Origin: a virus
Virus record (IMG/VR): IMGVR_UViG_3300010885_049703
Coordinates: 50,260 to 114,259 of that record
DNA length: 64,000 bases
Strand: one strand, 5' to 3'
Shown here: piece by piece, positions 13,055 to 57,883 of the stretch
Position numbering within the stretch: the stretch's first letter is position 1
Layout: each line of letters begins with the position of its first letter
Translations under genes and position numbers: made by a program
Notes under the pieces: generated by a model
Databases searched by the model: none
What the model saw: the letters and a program-made list of their open reading frames with translations, nothing else
Told to the model about the DNA's origin: nothing

Positions 13055-14347
13055 TTAATAACGATATGTCTCTGGTTTGAAAGGTCCATTAAGGTCTACA
13101 CCAATGTAGTCGGCTTGTCGTTGTGTTAGTGTAGTTAGTGTAGCACCAACGTGAGCTAAATGCAACCTAGCAACCTCCTCATCTATGTGTTTTGGCAACA
13201 GATAAATGTCTACTTTGCTGTATTTTGATGAATTGGTCCACAGCTCAAGTTGAGCCAACACCTGATTGGTGAAACTAGTTGACATCACGTAACTTGGGTG
13301 CCCCGTGGCGCAGCCCAGGTTTACCAGTCGACCTCGGGCCAACACAATAATTTTACGACCATCGGGCCATACCACATGGTCTACCAGAGGCTTGATTTCT
13401 TCCCAGACCAAGTCTTGTAAGCCGGCAATGTCAATTTCACTATCAAAGTGACCAATGTTACACACAATGGCATTACGTTTCATGCGATCCATGTGATGAC
13501 GAGTGATCACATCAACATTGCCTGTGGCAGTGACAAAGATGTCGGCTATCTCAGCCGCGTAGTCCATGGTCACAACTTCATACCCGTCCATGGCTGCCTG
13601 CAATGCACAGATAGGATCAATCTCAGTAATCCATACCCTGGCGTTTAATGCACGTAAGGCTTGAGCTGACCCTTTGCCTACATCGCCATAACCAGCAACC
13701 ACAGCAGTTTTACCTGCGATCATAACATCTGTAGCACGTTTGATCGCATCCACTAGACTTTCACGACAACCATACAAGTTATCAAATTTTGTTTTGGTGA
13801 CTGAATCATTGACATTGATCGCGGGAATCTTTAATGTACCTGCAGCAATACGTTCTACAAGTTTATGAATACCTGTGGTAGTCTCTTCACTGACACCAAT
13901 GATGCCGGGCAACAGATCAGGATGGCGATCATGCACCCATGCAGTGAGATCATGCCCATCATCTAACAATAGATTAGGTACCCATCCATTGGGACCGCGT
14001 ACGGTTTGTTCAATACACCACCAATATTCTTCTTCAGATTCACCTTTCCAAGCAAACACTGGAATACCCTGTGCAGCCAATGCGGCTGCTGCATGATCCT
14101 GCGTTGAAAAAATATTACAACTTGACCAACGTACTTCGGCACCAAGATCAACAAGTGTTTGAACCAATACTGCAGTCTGGATAGTCATATGTAGACTACC
14201 TGTGATACGTGCGCCCTGGAGAGGTTTTGTACTACGATACTTTTCACGCACAGACATCAAGCCCGGCATCTCTTGTTCAGCAATGGCGATTTCTCGTTGC
14301 CCCCAGGCCGCTAGGTCAATGTCAGCTACTTTAAAGTCATAGTGCAT
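13055..14347 (-). CDS. ahcY: S-adenosylhomocysteine hydrolase
   Basis: A 430-residue, full-length SahH. Start at the ATG at 14347 ([16 protein letters not shown]), consistent with the family N-terminus. Visible signatures: LHMT at 52-55, [12 protein letters not shown] at 78-89, [12 protein letters not shown] at 182-193 and the NAD-binding GYGDVGKG at 219-226; the C-terminus ends KPETYRY, the family ending. It splits S-adenosylhomocysteine into adenosine and homocysteine, relieving product inhibition of methyltransferases. Unusual in a phage; this genome has several methyltransferases. It overlaps the upstream small gene by 11 bp. Confidence 0.96.
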
Positions 14348-14510
14348 TGTCTGTGGCCCCCTGTGGACGTTTTTCGCGGCGAGGTTGAATTGCTGCTGCA
14401 AGTTCGGCTTGTATCATTGCTGATTTGTATGCATGCATGCGATCACCAAGTAATGTTGCCATTACTCGTTTGGTGGTTTTTGATAGGTTAAAGTGTTTAC
14501 CTGGTTTCAT
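14337..14510 (-). CDS. Small basic phage protein (57 aa)
   Basis: Read directly: [20 protein letters not shown], then a helical alanine-rich part and a basic end ([15 protein letters not shown]). It overlaps the omega-like gene upstream (4 bp) and sahH downstream (11 bp), as coupled phage genes do. The N-terminus resembles a small T4-like cyanophage family. Function unknown; the charge allows nucleic acid binding. Confidence 0.68.
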
Positions 14511-17257: not shown

Positions 17258-18673
17258 TTAGAAGCTAATTTGGCCTCTGAGCATAACTGCCTGTTCGCCA
17301 TCTACACGAGCACCAGATGTACCAACTGGTTTGTTAAACTTAGTGTCAACGTAGTTTGCCATCAAACGTACATTGTCGTTTAAGAACCAAGTAACACCGT
17401 AAGTAATGGAGGTTGCTAGGTTTGCTTTACCTGTTGCAACAGTGATATCTTCAGCATTGAACTCACTGGCACGTACACCAACTTGCCATGCACCCTTGCC
17501 ACCACTTGTGTAAGCAGAGTTAGGTTTGATCCAACCAAATATACCATCTTTGTAGTTGTGGCTCTCACCCGTGATATTATAGATTGCCTGAACATAGTGA
17601 CCAGTAATCTCTTTATCTGTACCAGTAGCGGGGTCATAGTTGAAGTTGAAATGCTCACCTTGCAATTTCAAACCCTTCCAAGCAAATGCTGCTTCAATGC
17701 CTTGGCGTGTTCGTGCGGTATCACCACTCAATGCTGATGATCCTGTGAACCATGCACTTTGCTGGCGGCCTTCAGTACGACCACTGGCAGGAGCAACTCC
17801 AGTTTTGACATTGCCTGTGCTGTATGCTGCACCCAAGTGTGCCACAAAGTCTTTGTTCTGAATTACTTCTGCAATGTTTGTAGTCACACGTCCAACAACA
17901 TCTACACCATCAACTGCGGTGCTCTTGTTAGCACGACCACGGCTTAGTGCCACAGCGTAGGTAAATCCTGTTCTAGGAATACCATGTAACATCACACCAG
18001 TTTCTTTGGCAGGAATAAATTCACCTTCAGTCTGACCAATCAAACTACGTTCCATGAAGTCAATGTTGTTGGAACTGGTCAACTGTTCTAAACTGAAAGG
18101 CATCTTAAATGTACCAACTTGTAGTTGTGCCTCTGTGATAGCAGCATAGTTAAACCAGAATTCATCAATGGTTGATGTGGTTGAACTTGCGCCAGCGTCG
18201 TTACCAAAGTTTGCCAAGAGAAGATATTTGAAGTCTTTGGCAATCTGTCCACGTACACCAAAACGTCCACGACGAACTTCCAATGTGTCTTGATATGGAT
18301 CGGTTGATTGACCAGAACTAAATGTTTGAGTATAACTTCTGTAGTCCATGTGAATACGACCAGTAAACTGTGCTGTGGTATTGCCATCTTTGGATTTGAT
18401 ACCAAGACCATTTTCCATCACAGCGCCATCATTCGCTCTGCTCAAACGATAGTTGTTGCTGTCCTTGACATCTTTGTCAATTCTAGATGATTGGAATTCT
18501 TTGTTTTCCAAACGATCCCGGTGTGCTTCAATTTTAGAAGAGTGTTCTTGCTTAGATAGAATTCCTTTTTGTAAAAGAATATCTAATGTATCAGTGTATT
18601 CATCTGCTTGCACAGATCCAGCAAACGACAAGGCAATTGCCAGCGCCGCTGTTAGCATTTTAAAGTGTTTCAT
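17258..18673 (-). CDS. Phosphate-selective porin (OprO/OprP family)
   Basis: A 471-residue outer-membrane beta-barrel. The N-terminus is a clear signal peptide (MKHFKMLTAALAIALSFAG, cut near SVQA-DEY), followed by a short helical part and then the OprP-like core: GLGIKSKDGNTTAQFTGRIH, LEVRRGRFGVRG and VGTFKMPFSLEQLTSSNNI. The protein ends in phenylalanine (LRGQISF), the outer-membrane insertion signal. OprP-type porins pass phosphate or polyphosphate. It lies directly downstream of pstS. A phage-encoded phosphate porin is unusual. It has a palindrome-bearing sigma70 promoter. Confidence 0.92.
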   Translation of the reverse strand: MKHFKMLTAALAIALSFAGSVQADEYTDTLDILLQKGILSKQEHSSKIEAHRDRLENKEFQSSRIDKDVKDSNNYRLSRANDGAVMENGLGIKSKDGNTTAQFTGRIHMDYRSYTQTFSSGQSTDPYQDTLEVRRGRFGVRGQIAKDFKYLLLANFGNDAGASSTTSTIDEFWFNYAAITEAQLQVGTFKMPFSLEQLTSSNNIDFMERSLIGQTEGEFIPAKETGVMLHGIPRTGFTYAVALSRGRANKSTAVDGVDVVGRVTTNIAEVIQNKDFVAHLGAAYSTGNVKTGVAPASGRTEGRQQSAWFTGSSALSGDTARTRQGIEAAFAWKGLKLQGEHFNFNYDPATGTDKEITGHYVQAIYNITGESHNYKDGIFGWIKPNSAYTSGGKGAWQVGVRASEFNAEDITVATGKANLATSITYGVTWFLNDNVRLMANYVDTKFNKPVGTSGARVDGEQAVMLRGQISF

Positions 18674-18737: not shown

Positions 18738-19763
18738 TTACTTCCAAATTGATTGACCACTGGGGTCTTTCAGATCTTTTTTCCAGTTATCTTGTACTAA
18801 TTTGATAACAGACTGAGGCATGTGTACATATTCCAATTCTTCACTCATCTTAGCGCCGTTTTTATAGGACCAGTCAAAGAATTTAAGAATAGCACGACCA
18901 GTCAAGCCATCTGCTTGTTGACGGTGCATTATGATAAAACTAGCACCAGTTGCTGGCCAAGAATCTTTGCCAGTTTGGTTTGTCAGTAACAAATACATTC
19001 CTGGAGCGTTGTTCCAATCTGCACCTGCTGCGGCTGCTTTAAATGTGCTGTCATCTGGTTGTACAAAGTTGCCATCACGATTTTTCAATTGTGCATGAGC
19101 AATTTTATTTTTCTTGGCAAATGCATATTCCACATACCCAAAAGAACCTTTGACACGTTGAATGTTGGCTGCAACACCTTCATTGCCTTTGCCGCCTACA
19201 CCAACTGGCCACTTTACGGCTGTACCTTCACCAATTGTTTTAGCAAAATCAGCATTTACTTTGCTTAGATAGTTTGTCCAAATAAATGTTGTACCTGAAC
19301 CATCTGCACGGTGTACTTCGGTAATATTCATTGCTGGTAGTGTAACGCCAGGATTCAAATCAGTGATTGCTTTGTCATTCCACTTGGTAATTTTGCCTAG
19401 ATGAATATTGGCAATTACATCACTGGTCAGTTTTAATTGTCCCGGTTCTACACCATCAAGATTAACCACTGGAACAACACCACCAATGATTGCAGGGAAT
19501 TGCATCAAACCTTCTTTTTCCAGTTCTTCTGGTTTCAATGGCATATCACTGGCGCCAAAGTCTACTGTCTTGGCTTTGATTTGACGTATGCCGCCGCCTG
19601 AGCCAATGCTTTGATAATTGAGTCCAATGCCTGTTGCTGCTTTGTAAGCTTCTGCCCATTTAGAATAAATTGGGTAGGGAAATGTAGCACCGGCACCGGT
19701 TAAATCTGCTGCAAACGCCACTCCGGTTAGCGTTAATAATACGGCTGCAATGAGTCGTTTCAT
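18738..19763 (-). CDS. pstS: Periplasmic phosphate-binding protein PstS
   Basis: A 341-residue protein with a signal peptide (MKRLIAAVLLTLTGVAFA) and the classic PstS start ADLTGAGATFPYPIYSKW. Further signatures are SIGSGGGIRQI, DFGASDMPL and HRADGSGTTFIWTNYLS, the phosphate-contacting loops. It binds phosphate in the periplasm and delivers it to the PstABC transporter, here presumably the host's. PstS is a known auxiliary gene of marine T4-like phages. A PhoB-type promoter lies upstream at 19810-19843. Confidence 0.97.
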   Translation of the reverse strand: MKRLIAAVLLTLTGVAFAADLTGAGATFPYPIYSKWAEAYKAATGIGLNYQSIGSGGGIRQIKAKTVDFGASDMPLKPEELEKEGLMQFPAIIGGVVPVVNLDGVEPGQLKLTSDVIANIHLGKITKWNDKAITDLNPGVTLPAMNITEVHRADGSGTTFIWTNYLSKVNADFAKTIGEGTAVKWPVGVGGKGNEGVAANIQRVKGSFGYVEYAFAKKNKIAHAQLKNRDGNFVQPDDSTFKAAAAGADWNNAPGMYLLLTNQTGKDSWPATGASFIIMHRQQADGLTGRAILKFFDWSYKNGAKMSEELEYVHMPQSVIKLVQDNWKKDLKDPSGQSIWK

Positions 19764-20851: not shown

Positions 20852-20997
20852 GAACCCTCCACTCTAAAACTTTTGAATTTAAAATCGTAACGCATGGTTC
20901 GTAGAACTCGTTCGCAGGCAGTGCGATCAGTGAACTCCAACTCTATCCTTCCGGGTTGATCCGTTGGATCGTTTACGTGTACTGCTATCAATATCAT
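20830..20997 (-). CDS. Possible small protein between plcP and agt (55 aa)
   Basis: Read directly: ATG at 20997, stop at 20830. The core IELEFTDRTACERVLRTMRY and DFKFKSFRVEG looks protein-like and fills the gap between plcP and agt. The overlap with plcP (71 bp) is long, so the start could be an internal TTG or ATG. Function unknown. Confidence 0.45.
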   Translation of the reverse strand: MILIAVHVNDPTDQPGRIELEFTDRTACERVLRTMRYDFKFKSFRVEGSCQQKQS

Positions 20998-21760
20998 CAA
21001 CCACATCATCTCGCTCCTGTGTCCAAGTTATTATCTCCCAGCGACCGTTGTGATGTTCAACCAATGCTGTGCATGATTCAACCCAGTCACCGTCGTTCAT
21101 GTAGACAACACCATCTATTTCTTTGATTTCTGCTTTGTGTATGTGTCCACAGATTACACCATCGTAGCCACGCTTCTTGCAGTATGTTGCTAGGTTCTTT
21201 TCAAATTGAAAGACAAAATCAATCGCTTTCTTGACTCGACCTTTAAGATATAAGCTGAGACTCCAATAACCAAAGCCGAGCCGGTGACGAATCCAATTAA
21301 AGCGGGAATTAAGTGTGAGTATAAAATCATATGCTTTGTCTCCTAGTATAGATAGCCATGGTGCCAGTCTAGTGATACCATCAAACAAGTCACCGTGTGT
21401 GACTAGATAATGACGACCGTCGGCACCAATGTGTTCGCATTGATTGACTATTTCAAAGTTGCCAAACCCTATACCATACTGCATGAATGGTCTTAGGAAC
21501 TCATCATGATTGCCAGCCACGTAAACGACTCGTGTTCCACGTTTGCTATAACCCAGCACACGGCGCACTACATTGGTATGACTTTGTTTCCACCGCCATT
21601 TGTTTTGTTTTATTTTCCAAGCATCAATAATGTCGCCTACAAGATACAATGTATCGCAGGTGGTGTGTTTGAGAAAATTGTTGAGCTGATCGGCCTTGCA
21701 ATCTTTGGTGCCAAGGTGAACATCAGAAATGAATACACTGCGATATGTTTTTGTTGTCAT
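20927..21760 (-). CDS. plcP: PlcP-type metallophosphoesterase (COG2908)
   Basis: A 277-residue calcineurin-like phosphoesterase. Metal-binding motifs: D13xH15 (ISDVHLGT), G42D43 (VGDIID), G83NHD86 (VAGNHDE), H in VTHGD and GHIH in VICGHIHKAE; MNDGDWVESCTALVEH is typical of the LpxH-like COG2908 group. Its members include PlcP, the phosphate-starvation phospholipase C that releases diacylglycerol for glycolipid synthesis. Location next to an Agt-like enzyme and pstS, with a Pho-type promoter, favours PlcP over LpxH. Direct proof of substrate is absent. Confidence 0.82.
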   Translation of the reverse strand: MTTKTYRSVFISDVHLGTKDCKADQLNNFLKHTTCDTLYLVGDIIDAWKIKQNKWRWKQSHTNVVRRVLGYSKRGTRVVYVAGNHDEFLRPFMQYGIGFGNFEIVNQCEHIGADGRHYLVTHGDLFDGITRLAPWLSILGDKAYDFILTLNSRFNWIRHRLGFGYWSLSLYLKGRVKKAIDFVFQFEKNLATYCKKRGYDGVICGHIHKAEIKEIDGVVYMNDGDWVESCTALVEHHNGRWEIITWTQERDDVVDDIDSSTRKRSNGSTRKDRVGVH

Positions 21761-21782: not shown

Positions 21783-21816
21783 ATTTAAGGTCATGTACAT
21801 TACAGATACGTTACAT
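21783..21816 (-). promoter_or_regulatory. PhoB-type promoter of plcP
   Basis: On the minus strand ATGTAAC-GTAT-CTGTAAT (21799-21816), two 7-bp repeats in 11-bp register, then 10 bp, then TTAAAT (21783-21788). CTGTAAT matches the Pho half-site CTGTCAT at six of seven bases. Layout and -10 are identical to the pstS promoter. Confidence 0.72.
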
Positions 21817-21819
21817 CAT

Positions 21820-21842
21820 GAAAAAGCCCGCCGAAGCGGGCT
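21820..21842 (-). terminator. tmRNA terminator with UUCG tetraloop
   Basis: AGCCCGC-TTCG-GCGGGCT followed by TTTTTC on the minus strand, just past the tmRNA coding piece. Confidence 0.88.
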
Positions 21843-21844
21843 TA

Positions 21845-22150
21845 CTATTTTGGGTTACAAGGCATAGTTGCCCCGGGGATTACGCTGCGAGAGCGAAAAC
21901 CTCGTCGTTAGCTGCGTTTGCAGTTACTAGTTTGCTTGGATTACGTCCATCGCCTGGCGTGTTGCCTTCTTTGCTATCTCACCCTGTCGAAGCCAGGTCT
22001 GGCCCATCAGAAACATACTTCGTCCTGCAGTACGGTCCTTTTCACAAAGAGTCGCACGGTCTGCAAATATGTTTCTGGTGGACCAGGTGGGAGTCGAACC
22101 CACGTCCAGAATGCCTTTACTCCAAAGGAATTACAACAATTCTTAATAGT
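21845..22150 (-). ncRNA. ssrA: Circularly permuted (two-piece) tmRNA
   Basis: The tRNA-like 3' half precedes the tag on the minus strand. Acceptor piece: T-arm GTGGG-TTCGACT-CCCAC, acceptor strand CTGGTCC, A, then encoded CCA ending at 22076. An intervening segment follows (22006-22075). The coding piece then begins at 22005 with GGGCCAG, which pairs with CTGGTCC over 7 bp and gives the G3-U70 pair read by alanyl-tRNA synthetase; the tmRNA D-loop GGCTTCGACAGGG follows. The tag frame (21880-21921) encodes ANAANDEVFALAA and stops at TAA. The intervening ends extend the acceptor stem (CCAGAAACATA / TATGTTTCTG). Outer 5' and 3' ends are approximate. Confidence 0.92.
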
Positions 22151-22153
22151 CGC

Positions 22154-22576
22154 TTATTTATTTTGTGGTTGATAATCCACGTTGGGCATACTATACAATA
22201 GAAAATTGTGACTGACTGCATCAAATCTAATCTTGAACATGCAGACTCCCGGCTCGTCAAGGTAACCATAGCTGCGCTTTATGCCTCCACGTTTTAATCT
22301 ATAAACGCAAAAATGATCAAGGTCTATCAACGGTTCACCGCCTAACTCAATCAGTTCCACAATCACTGCGCTGTCTGTGTCTGTTCTTTCTATTACTTCT
22401 ACACCTACACTTGCAATAGTTGTGACATCATGAACAAAGTCAAATCGTACCAGGGCAGGCTCAACTTGTTGACTAGATACCGGGTCTCCCAATATCTGCC
22501 AACGTATGGCATTGCCTTTAGATCTGATGTATAACGAAAGATTTCTTTGATTTCTTGGCTTCAATGTATTGTTCAT
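22154..22576 (-). CDS. Hypothetical protein (140 aa)
   Basis: Start placed at the ATG at 22576 (MNNTLKPRNQRNLSLYIRSK); the frame upstream lies in the radical SAM gene. It shows alternating hydrophobic strands (ALVRFDFVHDVTTIASVGVE, FCVYRLKRGGIKRSYGYL) and ends YSMPNVDYQPQNK, 3 bp before the tmRNA start. Likely all-beta. It overlaps the radical SAM gene by 59 bp. Family unknown. Confidence 0.65.
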   Translation of the reverse strand: MNNTLKPRNQRNLSLYIRSKGNAIRWQILGDPVSSQQVEPALVRFDFVHDVTTIASVGVEVIERTDTDSAVIVELIELGGEPLIDLDHFCVYRLKRGGIKRSYGYLDEPGVCMFKIRFDAVSHNFLLYSMPNVDYQPQNK

Positions 22577-25336: not shown

Positions 25337-27214
25337 TTATTTGCTTTCTTTGAAGTCGGCATCAACTACTGTTTCATCTGCTGATTGTGCGGACTCAGAT
25401 GCTTTGGCTTTGGCCTCAAAGATTGGAGCAGCAGCCTTGAACAATTCATCCAGACCGGATTTAATTGCTTCCAGGTCATTGCCTTGAACAGCAGTTTCAA
25501 CCGCAGTGATTGCAGTGTTGACAGAAGTTTTTTGTTCCTCAGTTAACTGTGATTCAACTTCTTTCATTTCAGCGCGAATCATATGTAACTGTGATTCGGC
25601 CTGGTTGCGTGTTTCAATAGATTCACGTTGTTTCTTATCGGCCTCGGCATTGAGTTCAGCATCCTTGATCATCTGTTCAACTTCGGCATCACTGAGGCCA
25701 GAGTTGGATTTGATAGTGATTTTGTTTTCTTTGCCGGTATTTTTGTCTTTAGCTGATACATGCATGATACCATTGGCATCAATGTCCAATGTTACTTCAA
25801 TTTGTGGCTGACCACGACGTGCTGGTGCAATGCCTTCAAGGTTGAATTCGCCCAATGATTTGTTGTACTGAAACAGTTCACGCTCGCCCTGTGCAACTTT
25901 GATAGTCACGGCAGGTTGATTGTCGTCGGCAGTGGAGAACACTTGGCTATGCTTGGTGGGAATAGTGGTGTTCTTGTTGATCAACTTAGTGAACACTCCA
26001 CCTTGTGTTTCAATACCAAGGCTCAAGGGAGTTACGTCAAGCAACAATACGTCTTTGCGCTCGCCGCCCAACACAGCACCTTGCAAGGCAGCACCTGCAG
26101 CCACTGCTTCGTCAGGATTGACATCATGTCGTGGCGCTTTGCCAAACAGTTTCTCAACTGCTTCTTGTACCTTGGGCATACGTGTTTGACCGCCAACAAG
26201 TATAACTTCATCTATGTCTGCAGCAGTGACTTTGGCATCGGTCAGGGCCTGACGGCATGGCGCCAAACTGCGTTGAATCAATTCTTCCACAAGGCTTTCT
26301 AACTTGGCACGAGTCATCTTGACATTTAAATGCTTGGGACCTGTGGCATCAGCAGTGATATAAGGCAAGTTTACATCAGTTTGTGCGCTGTTTGACAATT
26401 CAATCTTTGTGCGTTCAGCAGCTTCTTTGAGACGCTGCAGGGCCATCACATCGGCCTTGAGATCAACCCCGGACTCTTTCTTGAACTCGTCAACAAGATG
26501 ATCCATGATACGTTGGTCAAAGTCCTCACCACCTAGGAATGTGTCACCATTGGTTGACAACACTTCAATTTGTTTGTCGCCGTCAACGTGGGCAATCTCA
26601 ATAATTGAGACGTCAAATGTACCACCACCTAGGTCATACACAGCAATCTTGCGATCGCGTTTGTCTTGTTTGTCCACGCCATATGCCAAGGCCGCAGCAG
26701 TTGGCTCGTTGATAATGCGCAACACTTCCAGGCCTGCAATCTTACCTGCATCCTTGGTGGCTTGACGTTGACTATCGTTGAAGTAAGCCGGCACAGTGAT
26801 AACTGCCTGTGTGACTTCATGGCCAAGATAATCTTCTGCAGTCTTTTTCATCTTACGCAATACTTCGGCTGAAATTTGCGGAGGTGCTAGTTCTCGATCG
26901 TTAGCGCGAACCCAAGCATCGCCATTGCTGGCTTCCATGATTTGATATGGCATGAGGTCAATGTCTTTTTGCACAGCTTGTTCTTTGAACTTACGTCCAA
27001 TCAAACGCTTGGCTGCATAGATTGTATTCTTGGGGTTTGTCACTGCCTGACGTTTTGCCGGTGCGCCAACTAACACTTCGGCGTCGGTGTAGGCAACAAT
27101 TGATGGCGTAGTACGTGCGCCTTCTGAATTTTCAATTACTTTTGGGGTTCCATTTTCTACAACAGCCACGCATGAGTTGGTGGTTCCGAGGTCAATACCT
27201 ATAATTGTGCTCAT
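25337..27214 (-). CDS. dnaK: Full-length Hsp70 chaperone DnaK
   Basis: A 625-residue DnaK from the ATG at 27214 ([18 protein letters not shown]), preceded by AAAGGAGAAAACA. All ATPase signatures are intact: [37 protein letters not shown]. The linker [15 protein letters not shown] and the substrate domain follow, and the C-terminus is acidic. The sequence resembles betaproteobacterial DnaK. It lacks a visible linked dnaJ or grpE, so it would use host co-chaperones. Complete DnaK in a phage is unusual; recent acquisition from a host is plausible. Confidence 0.97.
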
Positions 27215-27276
27215 TGTTTTCTCCTTTGAAGTAAGCAAGATTTTGCAAATGCCCTGTCGGCACATTTACAAGTAAT

Positions 27277-54281: not shown

Positions 54282-55220
54282 CTATTTTGGTATAATTTTT
54301 GCAAGACTTTGTCCGCCGCGTAGTGTGGTGAGTTCGCCGGGCTTGCACAGTTCCACCCAGCACAGCGTATCGTTGCAATAGGTATAGGAATGTTCATATC
54401 CCAACATTTTGGCAAGATTTATCAGCATTTCACCGGGCGTATAACAGCAATAAATTGACTCACTTAACATTACACCATTGGCATAATCACAGTTATTGAA
54501 AGTAAAAATAAATGCACCACCGGGTCTAAGTTTGGTCAACAACTCAGACAAATAATGTTTGATAATCTCAAAAGGTCTAAAGTTAAAAAAGTTATAGGCA
54601 ACAACCAGTCCAAACTGGTTGTTAGGAAGAAAGTTCATCATTGGCTCAGATTCGCTTTCTTTAACAACATAGGACCTTAGATGTCGTTGATATCGCTTGT
54701 TAAATCTTTCTATACTTGGCACAAGTAAGTCGTAATCCTGATCAACAAGATACAAAGGGCTACTAGAAACAAGATCCAATACATGTTCTTCGGTGGCCGG
54801 CCTAAAACACACTGCCGGGTATTGCCAGTCGGACCAAGATTTGACACGTGCTCTAAAGATCTCATATTCTTCATCAGTAATAGCCAATTTCCGATTTAAA
54901 ATATAAGGTATAGTTTCGTGTTGCATTTCGTTGACATACCATTTGTAACTTTTTTCAAAGTACTGTGGCTGTATTTCTTCTACCAAAGCGTTGACGCTTT
55001 GCGAAATGTTTTTTAACTCTTGTTCTAAATCATGCAACGAATTAAGAACACCATCAACTTTTCTTTGAACATCAACTTCATACATGTTACGAACATTTAC
55101 TTCGGTTCGAACCATAGACATAAGTTCATCAAGATGGGAATCAATAGTCCATCGATAATCAACATTATTGAGTATCTGGTCAATTTGATTTTTATATCTA
55201 ATTATGTCGCTGAGCTTCAT
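54282..55220 (-). CDS. Methyltransferase-like protein with N-terminal coiled coil
   Basis: 312 residues. The first 90 form a charged helix (DVQRKVDGVLNSLHDLEQEL). A class I methyltransferase-like core follows: FGLVVAYNFFNFRPFEIIKH, LRPGGAFIFTFNNCDYANG, though the glycine-rich motif I is not clean. Conserved in T4-like cyanophages. Substrate unknown. It overlaps the polymerase by 4 bp. Confidence 0.72.
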   Translation of the reverse strand: MKLSDIIRYKNQIDQILNNVDYRWTIDSHLDELMSMVRTEVNVRNMYEVDVQRKVDGVLNSLHDLEQELKNISQSVNALVEEIQPQYFEKSYKWYVNEMQHETIPYILNRKLAITDEEYEIFRARVKSWSDWQYPAVCFRPATEEHVLDLVSSSPLYLVDQDYDLLVPSIERFNKRYQRHLRSYVVKESESEPMMNFLPNNQFGLVVAYNFFNFRPFEIIKHYLSELLTKLRPGGAFIFTFNNCDYANGVMLSESIYCCYTPGEMLINLAKMLGYEHSYTYCNDTLCWVELCKPGELTTLRGGQSLAKIIPK

Positions 55221-57883
55221 GTAAATTCAAACAGGCTTTGAAATGTATTTTCTGTATTTGTTGCTATTCCCAATTCCCAATCAAGAACACCCAACAGGTT
55301 GTCAACTTTGGCGTCAATCACAGTTGACTCCATCTCACGATCATCAAACGGCAATTCTTTGAACCATGCAGGCAAGTGCAATTCGTCAGTGGGATAGCCA
55401 ATTGACGTCCATCCTAGTGCATTACTTCTGAGTTTACAAACAATTGTTTTCATGCCATCAACAACGGCAATGCTGTAATTATCACTGTGCATTCTGCGCA
55501 TAGTATTCCAGTTCATTGCTGCACGTACATGTCCGGGCATATTGGTCTTACCTTCTCTCTGCTCGGCCTTGACAAATTTAGTGAGATTGTTTACACGTTT
55601 GGGAGTACCTTTTTCCCAACCTGGACGTTCTTTGAACACATACTTAAACTCTTTGATCTTCTCTACAACTGCATCCTTTTCAGCACCAGTCAACACATCA
55701 TTTAGAATTTCCGACAAAAAGTCTTGAATTACTTTGGGAGTATCGCTACGTTTTAGATCCAATCCCATGGCTTTGACTTTACCAGGTTTGCCATTGATAT
55801 CTGTGCGTTTGTTTTCTTTGTCATAGTACAGCACTGCATAGCGTTTCTTTGTGATAAACAGCCCTTTACTACAAACCAGTTCACGACCACCACGTATCAC
55901 TGCACCCATGTCTCGGGGTATGTGAAATGCAGTTTCCATGAACCCCGGAAAGCTGTCATTGACTTGATCGGCAATACCATCGTATAGCTGTACACACACA
56001 TCTTTGTTCCACTCCGTGCGACCTTCTTCTACTTCTTTTTTCAGTACTGGCCAGGCTGAAAAGTAACATGAGTCAGTGTCACCATAGATAATTGTTTCGC
56101 CTGTGTGATCATACTTGCCTGTGAGACACTCGTTGACGTAAGCGTCCATATGCTTGGCCACGGCTCTTCCAGTAAGTGTGGTTGATTGACCAATTCGTTT
56201 ATCAAAAAACCTACAACCAGGGTTGAGAATAGCGCCATACAAACTATTAAGATTAATCTTTTTAACCAACTGCCTCTTGTCCCAGTATTCAAACTGTGCA
56301 TCATCTGTTCCTTCATAATCTCTTGCTTTTGTTTGCATATCCTTGCGTTCGGCATACCAACGTTTGAGCAAGCCTGGAACCACACCTTCTCGTTCGTAAG
56401 TAAAAATAGTGCCATTGGCCGACAATATCCAAGGTTGATTACTATCAAAAATTATTCTCCAAATTTCAGCAGCTGAGTACACAGTCTCTTCGCCATCTTC
56501 CCAATCAACTGTGATTTCAGTGCCACGTTGCTGTTCCATCACAGCAGTATATTCAAGACTACCAAATAACCCTTCCCACGCAGCAGCAAAACTTGCACCG
56601 CCTTGAATTTTATCTGCAATGTACCTGTCGGTCATTGTTGGTCGGAATTGACCAACAATTGTCTCAGTGGCCATGTTAAGAGCACGGATTGCTGAGGGGT
56701 AGAGCGAGTTAATGTCAATTGATCCGATCCAGTCGTGAAGACCTTTTTTTGGATAAGCAACATAGGCACCTGCGGCTTGTGTGTCTTCATCTGTGAGTCT
56801 TTCTCTACGGTTGGGCACTACCAATCCACGTTCGTGGGCTTCGTTGATAATTGCTTGTTCTGTCACTGCCACGGCACCCATTGTGGTCTGCAGCAACACA
56901 GTATTTTCATGTGCCAGAGTATTGGCAAGGTCCAAGAACTTTAGTTTCTTGTCTAGTTTGGCCAACAGCACAACGTCTTGTCTGTTGTAGTCAATGAATA
57001 GTTTAAAGTTTTGATTGTAGAGTTGATCAAGTGTTCCTTCAAATGCTGTCTTGCCCCCAACCTCTTCGTATTCACCAATGGCATCCAGGCTATAGCTGTG
57101 ACGTTCTTCATATGTGTACTTGCGATACAATTGCATATAGTCCATGTGTACGCGGCCTACGAGGTCGTATGTCTGTGCTTCGGCACCAAATCTTTCAAAC
57201 GTCCTTTGCTTAGGAAGTTGCCCCCACAAACAGAATTTGCGTGTATCATCTTTGCTGAGAACTCTAATCACACGATTTACAGTATAAGGAATATCATAGC
57301 CTTCTGAGTTCCATCCACTCAACACATCAGCGTCATCAATAAGATCCAAAAACATCTTCAGCATCTCTGATTCTGATTCAAACAAGAAAGTGTTGTCAAA
57401 GTCTGCAACAAGCTCTTCAGCAGTTTCCATGCTGATGTGACGCGGAGGTATGGCCAAGGTCACAAGTTGATCTAACCAGCTCAGATATACTGATATTGCT
57501 GTGATGGGATTGAATGGATCATCGGGTCTTGAATATCCTTTTTCCGGATCAAAGTCTACTTCGATGTCAAAGAATGCTGCATGTAAACGCGGTGCGTCAT
57601 GGCCTTTGTAGTTTTCTTCTAGACAACGGAACACAGGATTGATATCAGACTCATAGAATCTTTTGCCGTTTTGAATGCGCAGTTCCTTGCGAAACTCTTT
57701 GTTGCTGCGTGTGGAAAATCTAGACACCGGAGTGCCATAGATACTTTGGAACTTTCCACGAGGGTCATCGTAGTAAAAAATATAGTTGGCCGGATACTCC
57801 TGGTATTGTCGAATACCATCACGACGTTCTACTACGTGTATGCGATCGTGCTCACGATCAAATAAGGCATCAATATAACTCAT
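55217..57883 (-). CDS. 43: Family B DNA polymerase (T4 gp43-like)
   Basis: 888 residues. Exonuclease I: FFDIEVDF with D106 and E108. Polymerase motif A: SIDINSLYPSAIR; motif B: KINLNSLYGA; motif C: YGDTDS. Complete length for T4 gp43. It replicates the phage genome with the gp45-type clamp nearby. The ATG lies exactly 6 nt after the TATAAT of a consensus promoter, so the mRNA would be leaderless. Confidence 0.96.
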   Translation of the reverse strand: MSYIDALFDREHDRIHVVERRDGIRQYQEYPANYIFYYDDPRGKFQSIYGTPVSRFSTRSNKEFRKELRIQNGKRFYESDINPVFRCLEENYKGHDAPRLHAAFFDIEVDFDPEKGYSRPDDPFNPITAISVYLSWLDQLVTLAIPPRHISMETAEELVADFDNTFLFESESEMLKMFLDLIDDADVLSGWNSEGYDIPYTVNRVIRVLSKDDTRKFCLWGQLPKQRTFERFGAEAQTYDLVGRVHMDYMQLYRKYTYEERHSYSLDAIGEYEEVGGKTAFEGTLDQLYNQNFKLFIDYNRQDVVLLAKLDKKLKFLDLANTLAHENTVLLQTTMGAVAVTEQAIINEAHERGLVVPNRRERLTDEDTQAAGAYVAYPKKGLHDWIGSIDINSLYPSAIRALNMATETIVGQFRPTMTDRYIADKIQGGASFAAAWEGLFGSLEYTAVMEQQRGTEITVDWEDGEETVYSAAEIWRIIFDSNQPWILSANGTIFTYEREGVVPGLLKRWYAERKDMQTKARDYEGTDDAQFEYWDKRQLVKKINLNSLYGAILNPGCRFFDKRIGQSTTLTGRAVAKHMDAYVNECLTGKYDHTGETIIYGDTDSCYFSAWPVLKKEVEEGRTEWNKDVCVQLYDGIADQVNDSFPGFMETAFHIPRDMGAVIRGGRELVCSKGLFITKKRYAVLYYDKENKRTDINGKPGKVKAMGLDLKRSDTPKVIQDFLSEILNDVLTGAEKDAVVEKIKEFKYVFKERPGWEKGTPKRVNNLTKFVKAEQREGKTNMPGHVRAAMNWNTMRRMHSDNYSIAVVDGMKTIVCKLRSNALGWTSIGYPTDELHLPAWFKELPFDDREMESTVIDAKVDNLLGVLDWELGIATNTENTFQSLFEFT

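Follow-up and report, generated by a model that had tools for sequence, protein, structure and literature searches.

A phage gene for a circularly permuted two-piece tmRNA, with an intervening spacer apparently exchanged among phages as a cassette

Results

In the present study, a window of 64,000 nucleotides was analysed, which comprises bases 50260-114259 of a 114,259-base IMG/VR virus record that is possibly a fragment. Positions 22138-21820, on the minus strand, hold a two-piece tmRNA gene of the circularly permuted kind: the CCA half lies upstream and the tag half downstream. The acceptor (CCA) half (22076..22138) contains the P2-distal GUUGU, the P2 strand CAUUCUG (22113-22107), the T-arm (22103-22087), the acceptor 3' strand CUGGUCC (22086-22080) and an encoded ACCA (22079-22076). 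It is followed by an intervening spacer (IVS) of 70 nt (22006..22075), a hairpin rod which is predicted to be excised from the precursor, and by the acceptor 5' strand GGGCCAG (21999..22005), in which G1 at 22005 marks the predicted RNase P cut. The 5' part of the tag half (21922..21998) comprises a D-loop-like segment and the PK1 region, with the P2 strand CAGGGUG at 21986-21980 and GCAAC at 21965-21961. The tag frame with its stop occupies 21880..21921 (tag 21921-21883) and encodes ANAANDEVFALAA, a tag of 13 amino acids with the degron end ALAA. The 3' part of the tag half with a GC-rich hairpin occupies 21819..21879; the hairpin itself (21843-21824) was taken as an intrinsic terminator, and a terminator scan gave this stem with its T-rich tail on the plus strand. 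No sigma-70-like promoter was found near the tmRNA gene.

ARAGORN called a permuted tmRNA with the tag ANAANDEVFALAA at 21789-22168. The Rfam model beta_tmRNA (RF01850) matched over its full length, including P2 and the 3' hairpin, with 154.2 bits against a gathering cut-off of 84 bits (E 3.8e-48), and was the best among the overlapping models of its clan; the betaproteobacterial type is thus a class given by model score and not a statement of descent. The model tmRNA_permuted (RF04321) also matched in full (139.6 bits, E 5.1e-28), and its intervening sequence is unpaired in the model. A preliminary description of this DNA had proposed a covariance search for a permuted tmRNA, and this search favoured the permuted models, with no standard one-piece tmRNA model among the Rfam matches listed for the locus. 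The two-piece permuted gene in a phage and the order of its halves, both claimed there, are therefore borne out by the ARAGORN call, the two permuted models, the positions of both halves and the T4-type DNA polymerase on the contig. The predicted mature ends, A76 at 22076 and G1 at 22005 with 70 nt between them, also fall at the positions named in that description.

The next gene downstream, outside the tmRNA, encodes a calcineurin-like (LpxH-type) phosphoesterase (20927..21760, minus). The T4-type DNA polymerase (phrog_262; 55217..57883, minus) marks the contig as phage, exonuclease and HNH endonuclease families are also present on it, and six tRNA genes lie on the same strand within about 8 kb of the tmRNA. 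The closest relatives of this polymerase occur mainly in phages of about 320-490 kb. SmpB was found neither in the 114-kb record nor in ten relatives, and the record and some of these relatives may be fragments; with none in the record, the tmRNA must presumably rely on host SmpB. The window also carries a full-length DnaK/HSP70 gene of 642 amino acids (25337-27265, minus), for which the best listed matches are about 69% identical and come from phage-collection records, some of them possibly bacterial DNA. Genes for an S-adenosylhomocysteine hydrolase (13055-14401), a phosphate-selective porin (17258-18673) and a PstS-like phosphate-binding protein (18738-19763), all on the minus strand, are possible host-metabolism genes.

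Relatives were collected by the adjoining phosphoesterase gene, by the acceptor/T-arm sequence, by a looser tmRNA pattern and by patterns of an open reading frame after CCA, and 130 distinct viral permuted tmRNA bodies were aligned. Nucleotide searches of INPHARED phages gave nothing close, only partial T-arm-type matches to tRNAs and tmRNAs. The 7-bp acceptor stem with a G-U third pair forms only between the two halves, as had been described, and was paired in all 130 (100%), a percentage biased upward by the use of ARAGORN to select the sequences and of acceptor pairing to parse them; G3.U70 was kept in 130/130. The T-stem was paired in every relative and P2 in 97%, compared with 30-80% in slid controls. 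Furthermore, three of the seven acceptor pairs had changed on both sides, and two-sided covariation was found in P1, the T-stem and P2; such changes are not so easily explained by the selection bias. Codon changes in the tag were mostly silent across the relatives (pN/pS 0.11), which indicates purifying selection.

Several relatives depart from the common form. Unusually long tags of 23-31 amino acids, such as ANADTFDFSAMSFTGNTVRGAANESRFALAA, are found in L031, L032, L256, L281, L131, L222, L047, L059, L304 and L314, and in the two long-tag families tested the changes were mostly silent (pN/pS 0.17-0.25). The phage permuted tmRNA at L146 6389-6815 has a predicted tag end of SFAV rather than AA; either a frame shift or the lack of the usual degron in this tag could account for it. 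In L043, L167 (Melnitz) and L525 the T-loop is altered, with GGCAGTR or GGCGGTA replacing TTCGANT; L043 and L525 also have an altered D-loop segment, ATCGAT, and the permuted tmRNA of L525 was missed by ARAGORN.

The spacer of the window folds as a rod that continues the acceptor stem (z = -6.1). In a set of 108 distinct viral spacers, pairing of the terminal 11 positions on either side was seen in 80-95%, and 70 of the spacers have at least 6 consecutive pairs, compared with 0.5% in shuffles. A conserved UGAU stands opposite ACCA. The observation that the intervening ends pair and extend the stem thus holds for the window and for its viral relatives. A search against Rfam gave no family for the window spacer beyond weak tmRNA fragments, and there was no match among PLSDB plasmids.

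A search of 2.9 million viral contigs for the core of the spacer from the window gave matches solely inside permuted tmRNAs, each of them located between CCA and G1. The 70-nt spacer recurs, 91-100% identical, in viral tmRNAs that differ in body, acceptor stem and tag, and the bodies that carry the same or nearly the same spacer are only 58-82% alike. In L525 the 70-nt spacer is identical to that of the window, with the acceptor GGGCCTG, the tag ANDSDYRIAA and halves that are 62% and 68% identical to those of the window. L527, with the acceptor GGGGGTG, has the window spacer core with three fully compensated differences in the outer pairs. Overall, 22 pairs of tmRNAs have spacers at least 90% identical and bodies less than 78% identical. 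In a tree built on the bodies with the spacers left out, a single clade of window-spacer bodies, a group defined by the spacers, was rejected by the AU test (p-AU 1.9e-18; 2e-4 without long rows); since the tmRNA bodies also look recombinant, these are tests of mosaics. Several other spacer families are common to differing tmRNAs in like manner, and the behaviour of the spacer is accordingly that of a cassette which is exchanged. As judged from the sequences, the spacer slot is exchanged among phages independently of the tmRNA body.

In some relatives the spacer contains a gene for a single-helix membrane micropeptide (MNDDLT... and other families), and the stop codon of this gene falls at the conserved UGAU that precedes the acceptor. 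Among 94 distinct spacers with a length of 45 nt or more, which were not chosen for open reading frames, a frame with a Shine-Dalgarno sequence spans the spacer in 10 (1.26 expected from shuffles), and the frame ends at the UGA adjoining G1 in 6 (0.28 expected). A search for tRNA-like ends and then AGGAG...ATG gave 21 new permuted tmRNAs, in 18 of which the frame ends exactly at that UGA. The Shine-Dalgarno-plus-start motif of the main family, MNDDLTxLxIGVVVVLVVFALVLL, was sought without requiring a tmRNA, and all its viral occurrences (18/18) lie between CCA and G1; this family is under purifying selection (pN/pS 0.21). Spacers of this kind are present in L226, L304, L309, L314, L319, L325, L331, L391, L402, L528-L536 and others, and L315 and L329, which have the same tag type as the window, also have a spacer frame. 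In predicted folds of the precursor, the Shine-Dalgarno sequence pairs with the last codons of the frame within the precursor helix, and in folds of the excised piece it often remains paired.

The micropeptide type, with a Shine-Dalgarno sequence and ATG after CCA and a frame ending at UGAU before G1, is absent from the window spacer. A frame of 29 amino acids that starts there (ATG in TATGTTTCTG) was ruled out, because the acceptor and P2 lie within it and because it is only 20 amino acids long in L002; it is a probable by-product of the hairpin and the tmRNA sequence.

Discussion

The usual explanation of a phage tmRNA is a host gene that has been retained, and to our knowledge the spacer of tmRNA has always been treated as waste. 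In the window, the acceptor of the tmRNA is typical of viruses, and its spacer seems to move between phages on its own; this spacer proves to be both conserved and structured, and in some phages it is a protein gene on which selection acts. The new part of the finding is this excised spacer, an exchanged cassette which in relatives is a micropeptide gene. Use of pre-tmRNA processing by a phage to control another product thereby becomes testable.

The gene is not new in itself, because a two-piece tmRNA has been published for phage Melnitz EXVC044M and a count over a collection of 2021 gave 53 two-piece phage tmRNAs (PMC9004378). The gene of Melnitz and that of the window are alike in being permuted, with the CCA half first and a tag frame, in a phage genome. 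However, the model matched is alpha for Melnitz (106.7 bits) and beta for the window; Melnitz has an altered T-loop, the acceptor GGGGGCG and a glutamine riboswitch, whereas the acceptor of the window is GGGCCAG and the Rfam search reported no riboswitch beside its gene. The window also differs from RF01850 in its acceptor (CUGGUCC/GGGCCAG, compared with the CACCUCC type in the model), and that model has no description of a structured, exchanged spacer such as is seen here. Single cases of a tRNA gene and of a repeat in the intervening sequence are described in the accessible part of PMC11915505, which makes no mention there of a protein gene or cassette exchange. In the open-licence literature, as far as its accessible text goes, neither protein genes carried in the spacer nor exchange of the spacer were found to have been reported before, and such reports may exist elsewhere.

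We consider it highly probable that the locus is a phage-borne permuted ssrA which undergoes two-piece processing, alanylation and use in tagging and ribosome rescue, and which carries an exchanged spacer cassette. The gene form, the helices, the selection on the tag and the exchange of the cassette can be read from comparison of the sequences; the processing, charging, tagging and benefit to the phage are what we infer from them. A single transcript would fold into a long rod made of the acceptor stem, the ACCA/UGAU pairing and the spacer helix. Host RNase P would then cut at 22005, and a host endonuclease with trimming would make the end at 22076, so that removal of the 70-nt spacer would leave two RNAs joined by the acceptor and P2 helices. 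This tmRNA would be alanylated through G3.U70 by the host alanyl-tRNA synthetase and work with host SmpB to add ANAANDEVFALAA to stalled chains. The tagged chains would be degraded by host proteases and the ribosomes rescued, and the phage may benefit as ribosomes stalled on broken messages are freed during infection.

A different use of the same RNA, as a decoy or inhibitor of host trans-translation or a disturber of host proteolysis rather than for ribosome rescue, appears unlikely. It has a precedent in the tag-less tmRNA-like RNA of mycobacteriophage DS6A, according to PMC11915505, and with no SmpB found in the phage the RNA would compete for that of the host. Unlike the DS6A RNA, however, the gene in the window keeps a full tag frame, the ALAA end and purifying selection on the codons, and a decoy role is less likely because the tag is under selection.

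The origin of the gene and the reality of the spacer exchange have also to be considered. The best Rfam model is betaproteobacterial and some neighbours are cell-like (DnaK, PstS-like, AdoHcyase), as would be expected of a recently captured host gene or of a bacterial contaminant in a viral bin. Against this, the contig has the T4-type phage polymerase, and the pattern GTTCGANTCCCNCCTGGTCCACCA had 8 matches in 84,980 bacterial and archaeal genomes, with no permuted tmRNA among them (those called by ARAGORN were tRNAs and one standard tmRNA), whereas an exact sequence closely related to GTTCGANTCCCNCCTGGTCCACCA had 67 matches in viral contigs, 64 of which were called permuted tmRNAs. This acceptor/T-arm signature, found in 67 viral contigs, is absent from the permuted tmRNAs of those bacterial and archaeal genomes, so that recent derivation from a host is not supported; the earlier suggestion of a host-derived gene does not stand as a recent event, the relatives being a large virus-borne set, and capture or contamination, which we consider very improbable, is largely refuted. 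Just as little credence is given to the idea that the shared spacers are assembly chimeras with no real exchange, even though all the sequences are metagenome contigs and short identical blocks can tangle assembly graphs. Both breakpoints are no more than about 10 nt away from the mature ends (window and L525: GGTCCACCA-spacer-GGGCC), and such flanks are too short for k-mer misjoins to be likely unless both phages already share the spacer. Moreover, the copies have their own substitutions, including the three compensated pairs in L527, and a like pattern is seen in several separate spacer families.

The present role of the spacer is most likely to hold both halves in one rod for accurate cutting; beyond this, genes have come to occupy the slot in some lineages. 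Whether the spacer is in general a gene slot, in which structured-RNA cassettes like that of the window or membrane-micropeptide cassettes are swapped at the mature ends and translation of the micropeptide is tied to processing of the precursor, is in our opinion an evenly balanced question. The pairing of the Shine-Dalgarno sequence would serve such a tie, but gating by processing is offered as a suggestion, because in the excised piece, too, this sequence is often paired. The tmRNA could also tag the micropeptide, because the excised message ends one base after the stop codon.

Exchange probably extends to further parts of the gene, because the tmRNAs of L002 and L003 are nearly the same and differ in the pseudoknot (PK1) region before the tag. 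In addition, the spacers of L029 and L059 have T-arm-like hairpins (GGGTTCGAACCCCACC and GCGGGTTTGAGTCCCGAG), which are perhaps remnants of tRNA-like sequence.
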